A stretch of 64,000 nt of DNA, taken from Treponema sp. (GTDB lineage Bacteria > Spirochaetota > Spirochaetia > Treponematales > Treponemataceae). Numbering within the stretch: position 1 is the stretch's first letter; the number at the start of each line of letters is the position of its first letter. The notes under the pieces were generated by a model that had not been told where the DNA came from, did no database searches, and worked only from the letters and a program-made list of their open reading frames with translations. The stretch lies in NCBI GenBank assembly GCA_024687165.1, contig JAILEY010000031.1, forward strand, positions 1 through 64,000, written 5' to 3'. This document shows positions 34,665-42,995 of this stretch, in pieces. The translations under genes and the position numbers were made by a program.

Positions 34665-36056
34665 ATGATGAGATCTTTGTATGCAGGTGTTTCAGGCTTG
34701 CAGAACCACCAGACAAGAATGGATGTTATCGGTAATAACATTTCTAACGTTAACACATACGGTTTCAAAAAAGGCCGTGCAACATTCCAGGACATGATCA
34801 GCCAGCAGATTAACGGTGCTGCAAAACCTACAGAAGAAGTGGGCGGTGTAAACCCTAAAGAAGTTGGACTTGGTATGAGTGTTGCAACAATTGACACTAT
34901 CTTTACTCAGGGTAACCTTCAGACAACAGGTAACCAGACAGACCTTGCAATTCAGGGAAACGGTTTCTTCGTCCTTAAAAACGGTGATGAAACATTTTAT
35001 ACACGCGCAGGTGTTTTCGGAGTAGATTCAGAAGGAACTCTTGTTAATCCTGCAAACGGACTTCGCGTTCAGGGATGGATGGCAGAAGATGTAAACGGTC
35101 GCCAGATTGTTCGCACTTCAGCAACTCCTACAGATCTCGTAATTCCTGTAGGACAGAAGGATCCTCCAAAGGCAACAGAAAATGTACGTTACTTCTGTAA
35201 CCTTGACAAAAATACACCGGAAATCCCGGAAAATCCTACTGCAGATCAGGTTATTGAAGGAACATGGCAGACAGAAATTAATATTTATGACAGCTACGGA
35301 AGCGCACATCAGGTTCAGATGAACTTTGCAAGGGTTCCTGGAAATCCAAACCAGTGGACAGTAAGCGTAAATGTAGATCCTGACAATGCTGAATTTACAC
35401 AGACCAGAGTAGGCTTTGGTTCTACTGACGGACAGGGAAATACATACACATTGAACTTTGACAACAGCGGAAAACTTCTTTCGGTTGTTGACAGTGCCGG
35501 AAATCAGTCTAATCCTGAGGGAGAAATCGTTCTTCAGGCTTCATATCAGGTTGCGGACAGCAATGCGGACGGTGACGGAAATCCATACCGCCAGACATTC
35601 AACCTCAACCTCGGAACTATCGGTTCTATGGAAAATACAATTACACAGAGTGCTTCAACGTCTACAACAAAGGCAAACTATCAGGATGGATATAAGCTCG
35701 GTTATCTTGATAACTTTAAGATTGACCAGAGCGGTGTTATTACAGGCGTTTACTCAAACGGATCTGTACGTACAATCGGTCAGGTAGCAATGGCTTCGTT
35801 CACAAACCAGGGCGGTCTTGAAAAGAAGGGGAACAACACATACGCAGAATCAATCAACTCTGGTATGGCAAACATTGGTGAAAGTGGTACACAGGGCAAG
35901 GGAAGTATGCTTGCAGGTACTCTTGAAATGTCAAACGTTGATCTTACAGAACAGCTTACAGACATGATCGTAACACAGCGTGGCTTTGAATCAAACGCAA
36001 AGACTATCCAGACTGGCGACAGTATGCTGGAAACAGTTCTCAGTCTTAAGCGTTAA
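34665..36056 (+). CDS. flgE: Flagellar hook protein FlgE
   Basis: FlgE forms the flexible hook joining the rod to the filament. The N terminus ([40 protein letters not shown]) and the C terminus ([40 protein letters not shown]) are the polymerisation helices. Counting from the first Met, Lys165 (VGQK) and Cys178 (RYFC) fall exactly at the positions reported to form the lysinoalanine cross-link between hook subunits in T. denticola. Length 463, normal. A terminator follows at 36142, ending this transcription unit. Confidence 0.97.
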
Positions 36057-36141
36057 TAGAATAAGGTAATAATGTGAAAGTTTGAGATTATCCTCAGACT
36101 TTCCATAAATAAAAGAAACACTATTACATAACCCAACCTTG

Positions 36142-36182
36142 CCGGCATAGATGAACCCTCGTTTATGCCGGTTTTATTTTTT
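36142..36182 (+). terminator. Terminator after flgE
   Basis: CCGGCATA pairs perfectly with TATGCCGG around a 14-base loop and is followed by TTTTATTTTTT. An upstream hairpin (GAAAGTTTGAG with CTCAGACTTTC, 36076-36103) has no T tract. Confidence 0.8.
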
Positions 36183-36190
36183 AAATTTTT

Positions 36191-36518
36191 CCGGTTTTGC
36201 GAAGCAAAATGGACGCGGATGCGGACAAGGGAAAATTTAAAAAATAAAATGATGATGCCGGAGGCATCATACGTTTTTTCATATACATTCTGGTTTTGCG
36301 AAGCAAAATGGACGCGGATGCGGACAAGGAAAAATTTAAAAAATAAAATGTTGATGACGAAGTCATCATACGTTTTTTTCATATACATTCCGGTTTTGCG
36401 AAGCAAAATGGACGCGGATGCGGACAAGGGAAAATTTAAAAAATAAAATGATGATGCCGGAGGCATCATACGTTTTTTCATATACATTCTGGTTTTGCGA
36501 AGCAAAATGGACGCGGAT
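36191..36518 (+). repeat. Tandem array of about 3.3 copies of a 99-100 bp unit with two hairpins
   Basis: Units run 36191-36289, 36290-36389, 36390-36488 and a partial copy 36489-36518. Each has the hairpin TTTTGC-GAA-GCAAAA, a GGACGCGGATGCGGAC block and a second hairpin. In units 1 and 3 this is ATGATGCC-GGA-GGCATCAT; in unit 2 it is TGATGAC-GAA-GTCATCA, so both arms changed together. The array fills the gap of about 550 bp between flgE and the truncated barrel gene. Open frames across it have no ribosome sites and only echo the repeat. Confidence 0.92.
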
Positions 36519-36607
36519 TCTTGCGATTTTTTATAAACTTCTAATTTATATTGACATTTTTTTTTTTTGTCAGATTGCGCTTACAGACTATTTTAAGGAG
36601 TTTATTT

Positions 36608-36979
36608 ATGAAAAAAATTATCGCTATGTTTGCAGCCGTAGTATTGTCTACAACTGCAGTTTTTGCAGATTTTTCTGCAGGTGCACGTGCGGGTGTAGGA
36701 ATTAACTTTTTTGAATTTGACGATGATATTGCTTCATTTGGTGATCCAAAAGTAAAATGTGGTTTTACAGCTGCAGTTTTTGCTGACATCGATATTCCTG
36801 TTGTGGAAGGACTTGTTTTCCAGCCGGAACTTGTATTTGCAAGACATGTGTTTGCTTTAGACGAGGGGGTTGAAATTGAGATTACTTCAAATACACTGGA
36901 TCTTCCTCTTCTTCTTGGTTACAAAATTAAGGCAGGAGATTCTTTTACAATCATGCCTTTTAAAGGCTGCCTTGAATGA
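36608..36979 (+). CDS. Truncated outer-membrane beta-barrel protein gene
   Basis: A signal peptide (MKKIIAMFAAVVLSTTAVFA) is followed by the start of a small OmpW/OMP_b-brl-type barrel: SAGARAGVGINFFEF, CGFTAAVFADIDIPVVEGL, FQPELVFARH, LDLPLLLGYKIKAGDSFTIM. Such proteins are usually 170-200 residues; this one stops at 123 with MPFKGCLE, inside the loop of its own terminator hairpin. The last 50-80 residues and the C-terminal aromatic are lost, probably by a deletion that joined the gene to its terminator. AAGGAG precedes the ATG, so it may still be translated. It is one of several genes between the flgE and flbD parts of the motility cluster. Confidence 0.65.
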   Translation: MKKIIAMFAAVVLSTTAVFADFSAGARAGVGINFFEFDDDIASFGDPKVKCGFTAAVFADIDIPVVEGLVFQPELVFARHVFALDEGVEIEITSNTLDLPLLLGYKIKAGDSFTIMPFKGCLE

Positions 36980-37070: not shown

Positions 37071-37292
37071 ATGATTTTTCCTTTGGAAGATATGGCAAAA
37101 TTTAAGGGTGGCATGTACGGAATTACTGTAGCAGCAAGTCGTCGTGCATATCAGCTTGCAAAGCTCGCTATGATCAAAGACCCGAATGTATCTGAACTTG
37201 TTGAAGAAAATAACGGAAAGGTTGTAAGTCTTGCAGCACGTCAGCTTTTCTCTGATGAAGTTCATTACTCAATTGAAAACTCAGAACGCTAA
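37071..37292 (+). CDS. rpoZ: RNA polymerase omega subunit
   Basis: A 73-residue omega-type protein. The core motif GITVAASRRAYQLAKLA corresponds to the conserved helix that wraps the beta-prime C terminus, and the following KVVSLAARQLFSDEVHY fits the short bacterial omega. GGGG precedes the ATG. It is followed after six bases by miaA, a pair that also occurs in other bacteria, and lies within a gap in the flagellar cluster. Confidence 0.8.
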   Translation: MIFPLEDMAKFKGGMYGITVAASRRAYQLAKLAMIKDPNVSELVEENNGKVVSLAARQLFSDEVHYSIENSER

Positions 37293-41805: not shown

Positions 41806-42995
41806 GCGAAGGTTCTATTTCACAGGAAGAAATTGACGCATTATTGTCTGGCGTAGACGTTGGAGGAATTGGTTCTGGAAGTTCATTTGCATCAGGTCCT
41901 GATGTAGCTCTGGACATTCCTACATTGCAGACTTTTGCAGGAAAAATTAAAGATAAACTTGCTGAAGTTATTAAGGGAATGACAGAACAGGATTGTACCG
42001 CTGGTGAGGCAGTTGTAGAAGGCTGTGACCGCGATAAGCTCCTTGCAAAAATTCCGGAAGTTGTAGTTGCAGTTATGGCAGATTATTCTGCAGGACTTGC
42101 TGGAAGTCATCTCTTCCTCATGTCTCCAGAATTTGCAACAAAACTTGTTGGTTATATCAATAAAGAAGAAAATCCTAATCTTGATGATATGGGTCTTTCT
42201 GTAATTTCAGAAGTTATTTCATCACATTCTGGTGCTGAAATTACAGAATTGAGCGCTACAGGAAAACTTCCTGGACTTGCAACAAATCCACCTGAAGCTG
42301 TAAATCAGCCTAAAGCAATGATTTGTATGCCACAGGGAAATTTCTGCTGTTTTACATACAATGTAAATCTTGGTGGAGAAACATATACACTTTGGGAAGC
42401 AGTTGCAGGTACGGTTGCTGATGGTATGGCTAAGGCTCTTGGCGGAGGAGTAGCTCCGGTTCAGGAACTTGGTGCAGCACAGGCAGCTCCAGCAGCAGGT
42501 TTTACACAGCAGGCTCCAATGGGAGGTATGCAGATGGGCGGAATGCAGCAGCCAATGATGGGCGGTATGGGAATGCAGCAGCCGATGATGGGTATGCAGC
42601 AACCTATGATGGGTATGCAGCAGCCGATGATGGGTATGCAGCAGCCGATGATGGGCGGAATGCCAATGCAGACTCCACCAAATGTTCAGAACCTTCAGTT
42701 CCAGAACTTCCCGCCTTCAATTTCAAGTGCAGAACAGGGAAACATCAGTCTTATCATGGACGTTTTCATGGAGATGACTGTAGAACTTGGTCGTACAAAG
42801 AAAACAATCAAGGATATCCTTGGGCTTGGAGAAGGTACAATCATCGAGCTTGATAAACTTGCCGGTGAACCGGTTGATATTCTTGTAAACCATAAGCCGA
42901 TTGCAAAGGGTGAAGTTGTTGTTATCGACGAAAACTTCGGTGTTCGTGTCACAGAAATCCTTCCGGCACTTGAACACGTTGCATCTTCAATGTAA
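41802..42995 (+). CDS. fliY: Flagellar motor switch protein FliY/FliN
   Basis: A long FliN-type protein of 397 residues. It has an N-terminal FliM-like motif ([15 protein letters not shown]), a CheC/FliM-like middle domain (about 60-215) and a C-terminal SpoA (FliN) domain (about 305-397, [40 protein letters not shown]). Between the last two lies a Met/Gln/Gly/Pro-rich linker made of MQQPMMG units encoded by a 21-bp tandem repeat. It corresponds to FliY of T. pallidum. The 3' end of the gene and its terminator have a decayed duplicate at 43501-43590. Confidence 0.93.
42543..42656 (+). repeat. 21-bp coding tandem repeat in fliY
   Basis: Four adjacent copies (42573-42656) and one set apart by nine bases (42543-42563) of ATGCAGCAGCCGATGATGGG plus a final T or C, encoding MQQPMMG. 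Copies differ by single bases. Copy-number change would lengthen or shorten the linker in frame. Confidence 0.9.

Follow-up and report, generated by a model that had tools for sequence, protein, structure and literature searches.

The window, by which we mean the whole 64,000-nucleotide stretch of Treponema DNA that was analyzed, belongs to a draft assembly that totals 2.38 Mb over 87 contigs. Its plus strand carries flgE (34665..36056), an ORF encoding the flagellar hook protein with FlgE_D2, Flg_bbr_C, and two more Pfam domains, followed by an intrinsic terminator with a 14-bp stem (36141..36172, plus strand) recognized by hairpin prediction and by comparison with relatives by eye. Sixteen bases separate the terminator stem from a tandem array of 3.3 units of 99-100 bp (36189..36518, plus strand), which thus lies directly behind the terminator, as a sequence-only reading of this DNA had described. 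TRF reported a single array at 36189-36518 with a period of 99, 3.3 copies, and 93% matches, in agreement with the ~100-bp repeat of ~3.3 units that the same reading had placed between flgE and a truncated barrel gene. Relatives without the array have a similar terminator behind flgE, and in genomes G162 and G027 rpoZ stands directly behind it (both by eye).

The ORF downstream of the array (36608..36979, plus strand) is a truncated outer-membrane barrel gene of the TDE1717 family, as had been claimed: it scores 43.9 bits against the TDE1717 model, below the cut-off of 135 bits, and covers profile positions 1-113 of 210; against OMP_b-brl_2 it covers positions 9-101 of 175. It represents about the first half of a TDE1717-family gene and ends in a terminator-like hairpin. 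An rpoZ-like gene with an Rpb6 domain in Pfam (37071..37292, plus strand) follows. Elsewhere in the window, at 42567-42655, a 21-bp unit is repeated in tandem 4.2 times and reads MGMQQPM if translated from its first base. A coding role for ORFs in the flgE-linked array was set aside; the plus-strand ORF had no Pfam match and the minus-strand ORF had one match below the cut-off.

Each unit of the array is built on an element, termed E-P4 here, that recurs across the genus. E is a three-way junction of ~60 nt with an outer stem, P1, and two arms, P2 and P3; P4 is a hairpin of free sequence directly behind P1. On the plus strand of unit 1, E occupies 36171..36250, as given by the energy fold and by a match at 36182-36239 (61.2 bits) to the covariance model R2 described below. 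The energy fold shows the complete junction, with P1 formed by 36171-36192 and 36229-36250, P2 by the hairpin GUUUUGC GAA GCAAAAU at 36194-36210, and the P3 arm by 36211-36226. The P4 hairpin, ATGATGCC GGA GGCATCAT, lies at 36252..36270 in the sequence, the hairpin prediction, and the energy fold. Unit 1 and its flanks were predicted to fold much more stably than shuffled sequences, with z scores on the two strands of -7.6 and -6.9 for an RNA fold and -8.4 and -7.8 for a DNA fold (0/200 shuffles each). The 22-bp outer stem is present only in unit 1 among the window units, and the T-rich stretch that follows the flgE terminator forms its 5' arm. The remaining units, also on the plus strand, are unit 2 (36290..36389), with its E core matched by R2 at 36288-36331 (34.2 bits), the 5' arm of P1 replaced, and P4 at 36352-36368 by sequence and hairpin prediction; unit 3 (36390..36488), matched at 36384-36438 (35.1 bits), with P4 at 36451-36469 on the same two grounds; and unit 4 (36489..36518), a stub that in the sequence and by TRF breaks off within P3. 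The window copies are divergent, in that their P4s lack the GAC tag described below and units 2-4 lack a full P1. Their P4s, with ACGTTTTTT or a related stretch behind them, have a terminator-like score.

Units 1 and 3 are identical over 99 bp. In unit 2, P4 reads GATGAC-GAA-GTCATC, versus GATGCC-GGA-GGCATC in units 1 and 3, so that a C-G pair has become A-T, and the loop and one outer P4 base have also changed; two bases in the P1 region differ as well, and one base is inserted. The change on both arms of P4 is as the sequence-only reading had it. Because unit 3 equals unit 1 and unit 4 shares its CTGG start with unit 2, the array has the order AB-AB', and the paired change counts as one event and as weak evidence alone. 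Covariation in the window by itself was accordingly rejected as proof of a selected structure.

Distribution and fold of the E-P4 family

Near matches to the first half of the unit were found in genomes G027, G031, G090, G152, and G065, and the window's own genome holds a second tandem array with near matches, on contig C78. A covariance model, R1, was made from seven seeds that included window unit 1 and another own-genome copy. R1 matched in 101 of 200 genus genomes, the own genome included (E ≤ 0.01; all model E-values are rough, calibration having been short), and in 40 of the 85 good-quality ones; since 27 candidates were scored per genome, these are lower bounds. The own genome gave matches at eight places with E below 1e-6, and eight genomes searched more deeply gave 5-24 matches each, a few of them being both strands of one element. 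Across a sample of 390 genomes from the order, 56 had a match (E ≤ 0.001), 53 of these in Treponema; the three outside the genus were weak (8.5e-5 to 7.6e-4). Because window unit 1 had been used to train R1, a second model, R2, was made with 110 matches taken from eight genomes other than the window's own, its rows having been found by R1 and aligned to it. R2 recovered unit 1 at a rough E of 1.5e-11; its scores for units 2 and 3 were 34-35 bits, and, reverse-strand unit 1 aside, the best match elsewhere in the window reached 14.2 bits. An exact pattern for one E sub-type retrieved ten records from Treponema and Spirochaetaceae MAGs, several of these MAGs being from horse faeces and one from water-buffalo rumen.

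At 20 loci with E, Rfam matched two tRNAs only and no family matched E, and within window positions 35900-36700 Rfam matches were all below gathering scores. With nothing for E above the gathering threshold in the window or at the 20 loci, identity with a known Rfam RNA was rejected. A phage or plasmid origin was likewise discarded after two exact patterns and two single queries had given no match in phage, plasmid, or viral contigs. A separate repeat of ~110 bp was seen at ~1380-1640 of loci L007, L008, and L009 (genomes G130, G006, and G175, respectively); it ends in CCGGTTTTGCGAAGCAAAATG, 21 bp that are common to window unit 1. These three genomes had 47, 67, and 285 first-look candidates, and Y1 transposase genes are present in them.

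The alignment used for the fold kept 139 rows out of 166 once overlapping matches and identical sequences had been removed, and the rows come, very unevenly spread, from 32 genomes. What the near matches named above have in common is architecture rather than sequence. Placed side by side, they typically have TTTTTGC GNA GCAAAAA as P2 and a mismatch within the P3 stem. In this alignment, which was fitted to the structure and so favors pairing, 22 of 23 stem pairs have changed on both sides, and none of 500 shuffles, which do not preserve relatedness, reached any of five measures. Over 100 distinct rows, 95.0% of 2159 cells were paired, and sliding the partners by 1-3 columns lowered this to 44-56%. 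The edge of P1 is sharp, pairing just outside it being no higher than expected. Lengthening of P1 by copying of flanking DNA was rejected, since pairing does not extend past the canonical edge and a longer P1 occurs in window unit 1 only. At one locus, L061, the minimum-energy RNA fold kept P1 and replaced the model's P2 and P3 arms with another interior.

The structure of E thus appears to be under selection, a conclusion well supported by the family; the sequence-only reading had drawn it from the array, where the single event could not carry it. Its suggestions to look for the unit elsewhere and to build a covariance model yielded copies with paired changes, the opposite of the outcome that would have counted against it.

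P4 was found downstream of E in 110 of 133 elements, compared to 2 of 133 for the mirror position upstream and 3 of 133 after shuffling (limits of the flanks reduced the 139 rows to 133 here and to 134 for the gene-tail count below). It has 93 distinct sequences and loops of mostly 3-4 nt. Behind its stem, G, A, and C stand at successive positions in 71, 65, and 67 of 94 cases, and GACN follows directly in 48 of 94 (GACT 24, GACG 11, GACA 10, GACC 3). The commonest outer end of P1 is CGAGTTT/AAACTCG, and all four Watson-Crick types were found at the outermost pair. At L123 (1017-1096), a second P4-type hairpin (AGCAAGC..GCTTGCGAC) sits within the P3 loop of E, as if P4 could move alone.

G.U and A.C mismatches were counted as a test for a single working strand. 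The ratio was 23:2 in the inner four pairs of P1, 6:7 in outer P1, 7:2 in P4, and 7:10 in P2 and P3. The G.U excess in inner P1 is suggestive of one working strand and not decisive. Of the two forms that the sequence-only reading had offered, RNA or a cruciform, a double-stranded DNA cruciform is thereby less favored than a single strand, which may be RNA or DNA.

Gene ends and copies of gene tails

Placement relative to genes was counted at 88 loci, with one element per locus and within the limits of the flanks. At 39 of the 88, a sense ORF (120 codons or longer) ended no more than 120 nt upstream of E (random positions, 8.6%), 23 of these 39 having their stop within 20 nt of E, and an antisense ORF ended just downstream at 34 (random, 11.4%); both were present at 12 loci and neither at 27. 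As both kinds of end are above random, gene 3' ends are favored in either orientation. The upstream genes identified at single loci using NCBIfam encode GdhA, IlvC, LigA, CarB, MiaB, Amt/P-II, and a PotD-like protein; two proteins had no NCBIfam match when scanned, and a transketolase and a GGGtGRT protein were read from the sequence.

E is present at some orthologous sites and absent from others. Over 30 gdhA loci and 30 flgE loci (3.3 kb), taken as best protein matches and not as a random sample, R2 matched only behind gdhA in six genomes and behind flgE in the window's own genome. G164 has E-P4 behind gdhA, and G057, with a nearly identical downstream flank, has none; by eye, the insertion is not clean, with no target duplication and ~20 bases replaced. 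In G122 and G141 another hairpin takes the place of E, with P4 and the tail copy retained (by eye). An element working through hairpins, which the sequence-only reading had proposed, is supported in outline by this presence and absence, by the many loci, and by the arrays. The three-way junction and the gene-tail copies described next go beyond that reading.

In 22 of 134 elements, part of the upstream flank recurs behind P4 as a strong direct repeat (null, 1%), and in at least 18 of 134 what recurs is the upstream gene's 3' end, reaching its stop or going beyond; two cases in the window and those at L111 and L143 were not taken for gene ends. The compared stretch lacks a strong tail copy in the other 112. 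In 16 of 18 cases the alignment begins 0-9 nt behind P4, and at L176 and L162 further in, but at L162 the copy itself also begins right behind P4. Tails and elements alternate in head-to-tail arrays. The tails are 5 to 67 codons long, all copies that were read are in sense, and no microhomology was seen at the junctions by eye. At L150 the upstream copy starts the contig, so that its adjacency to a gene is not visible there.

Codon differences were counted in 24 tail pairs from 19 loci, picked by hand and eye where the reading frame was clear and not independent of one another (nine came from a single gene at four loci, six from gdhA), and 66 were synonymous versus 7 non-synonymous. Random placement of the differences made 80% non-synonymous, and never fewer than 63% in 2000 trials. 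Serine AGC versus TCG is among the differences. Such almost exclusively synonymous change implies that each copy was once coding, rather than a decaying non-coding copy; most simply, the copies would have been coding in another lineage.

The commonest family of neighbors, found at 12 of 104 E loci versus 1 of 20 control loci, is represented at L263 by an Rpn nuclease above the NCBIfam cut-off and at L264 by a weak match to the C-terminal part. On contig C5 of G112 (L264), a 321-codon ORF is followed by E, P4, a 67-codon tail copy with its own start, and E; the last 42 codons of this rpn tail have nine synonymous changes and one non-synonymous change. Contig C149 of G005 has an ORF at the contig end, then E, then an 84-codon tail ORF with a different C-terminus, and on contig C47 of G131 three E alternate with two short Rpn-tail ORFs, of 75 and 86 codons, the gene preceding the first E not being rpn. 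Small RpnS-like ORFs lie behind or between E-P4 at L262 (9812-10460), L264 (1363-1566), L265, L267, and L270, and some of those at E-P4 have a different C-terminus. We regard a possible association between E and Rpn, read from gene neighborhoods, as a lead. In E. coli, some full-length rpn genes are followed by another copy of the small C-terminal protein, according to a preprint whose authors propose that RpnL may have a part in initiating rpnS recombination (Zhong et al. 2023, PMC10327210). The Treponema loci are alike in having such a copy behind full-length rpn, and differ in that their copies are bounded by E-P4 and that the pattern extends to housekeeping genes.

Known repeats and possible origins of E-P4

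The nearest known kinds are CGTC-tagged REPs and, in behavior, attC arrays, and we do not count E-P4 as a member of either. Integron attC sites have variable sequence and conserved structure, carry R boxes GTTRRRY and RYYYAAC in their two arms, and form head-to-tail cassette arrays. E resembles them in size, in its conserved structure, and in having coding segments between head-to-tail sites. However, on inspection its arms lack the constant boxes (inner P1 columns 8-11 vary freely), and on this ground E was rejected as attC; its cassettes, moreover, are tails of the upstream gene.

CGTC-tagged REPs are short intergenic palindromes that have been reported in Spirochaetes and seem to have no transposase of their own; their description gives an 8-9 bp stem, a 4-5 nt loop, and a CGTC, TGTC, or CCTC tag at one end, with head-head dimers predominant and clusters rare (Di Nocera, De Gregorio & Rocco 2013, PMC3733652). 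On that description, the GAC behind most P4s is the complement of a GTC-ending tag, and the P4 slot of L111 holds an 8-bp stem that starts ATTCC and closes a 5-nt loop, the other strand carrying the tag TGTC (by eye). Unlike these REPs, E is a 60-nt three-way junction and not a hairpin, P4 loops are mostly 3-4 nt and stems usually lack an AT start, and the arrays are head-to-tail with gene tails between. L111 (937-1111) combines an E sub-type (AGAGTTTTGC..AAAGTCT) with its TGTC-tagged palindrome. GTAG REPs and REPINs, which have RAYT (Y1) transposases, are non-autonomous structured extragenic repeats (PMC2817692, PMC8049555, PMC3733652). They are like E-P4 in this and in clusters reiterated in tandem with flanking DNA; they differ in that the E fold is larger and no Y1 was found in 18 of 21 E-rich genomes, and no GTAG tag was noticed in E-P4. 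The element was not recognized in literature on Treponema repeats, REPs, MITEs, structured RNAs, or REP-like three-way junctions within a coverage that omits most subscription journals; a term search of Weinberg 2010 gave no relevant mention, a human-microbiome RNA paper described other motifs, and a stem-loop survey included T. pallidum only, in a table.

On balance we lean toward E-P4 being a mobile or recombining element that is kept for its fold and builds arrays of gene tail, E, and P4. It would act as a recombination or mobility signal that a putative enzyme reads in folded, single-stranded form, by analogy with REP or attC sites, and would spread to new gene ends. Units of gene tail, E, and P4 would be moved or duplicated, some from other lineages, which would explain the almost exclusively synonymous tail differences, and selection for a foldable copy would keep stems paired while the letters drift. 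As part of this reading, the window array would be a repeat specific to the genus that has expanded locally in tandem, the T-rich tail of the flgE terminator taking the place of the gene tail.

Counted against mobility are the near-equal antisense placement (34 versus 39 of 88), the lack of a strong tail copy at most elements, the failure of our searches to find an enzyme for E-P4, the unclean insertion behind gdhA, which is the one that could be aligned, the negative phage, plasmid, and viral searches, the divergence of the window copies, and the deviating RNA fold of L061. Y1_Tnp (E ≤ 1e-5) was detected in 54 of 196 genus genomes. It was found in only three of the 21 genomes with at least seven E matches (G031, G123, and G186), its absence from most of the other 18 being inferred from a list of positives over incomplete drafts. 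This distribution, with only a fragment below cut-off in the own genome, led us to reject RAYT/Y1 as an unlikely mobilizer. That fragment is a Y1 C-terminal piece in a 91-aa frame at L032 1501-1584 (G000:C69:57984-58067).

A passive origin, to which we give a clear minority of the weight, would start from an old inserted repeat at whose hairpins replication stalls, giving tandem duplications that end at P4, while strain recombination brings in diverged tails and template switching corrects quasi-palindromes, so that stems would stay perfect without being in use. Slippage at hairpins with ordinary strain recombination would indeed give much of the same picture and remains a serious explanation: the duplications end at the base of P4, truncated and core-deleted copies exist (window unit 4; L206 and L192; L150), and a mobilizing enzyme was not found. 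But the arms of P1 are separated by ~40 nt that hold two further arms, template switching alone would not be expected to yield a three-way junction whose unpaired letters are conserved and whose P1 edge is sharp, and spread to many genes requires movement.

We consider it improbable that E is a structured RNA of 3' UTRs, protecting mRNA or forming its end and moved by ordinary recombination only. The closeness to stop codons at 23 of 39 sense loci and the G.U excess in inner P1 would suit such an RNA, whereas antisense placement is nearly as common, P2 and P3 have no G.U bias, E comes and goes among relatives, and TTTTT lies 20-70 nt behind E in just 35 of 139 elements. Reverse transcription of mRNA 3' fragments ending at P4 and their insertion behind P4 would fix the 3' end of the copies and let their 5' start vary, in line with the fixed boundary, the range of tail lengths, and the sense orientation of all tails read; local retrocopies, however, would drift neutrally rather than differ almost only by synonymous changes, and we think this very unlikely. 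Least probable of all is a non-autonomous MITE of a classical DDE insertion sequence. Its inverted ends would be CGAGTTT, the commonest outer end, but the letters of these ends vary through all four Watson-Crick types at the outermost pair, P4 is not enclosed by the inverted repeat, and a short target duplication of fixed length was not seen.

A more specific form of the favored reading, which we offer only tentatively, is that E-P4 is the recognition site of a recombination system trafficking gene tails. The last codons and the folded end would travel as cassettes, exchanged between Treponema lineages and stacked head-to-tail, much as an integron for C-termini, and would vary, among others, the RpnS antitoxin of an anti-phage nuclease.

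To our knowledge, a fold kept while its letters change is known mainly from attC sites or structured RNAs. Here such a fold occurs in half of the sampled genomes of the genus, has no Rfam match, and is tied to duplicated gene ends that appear to have evolved as coding sequence. If gene tails do travel with it, E-P4 would offer a new means of varying C-termini and of mixing them across species, and this traffic would, at rpn genes, touch anti-phage toxin-antitoxin pairs.
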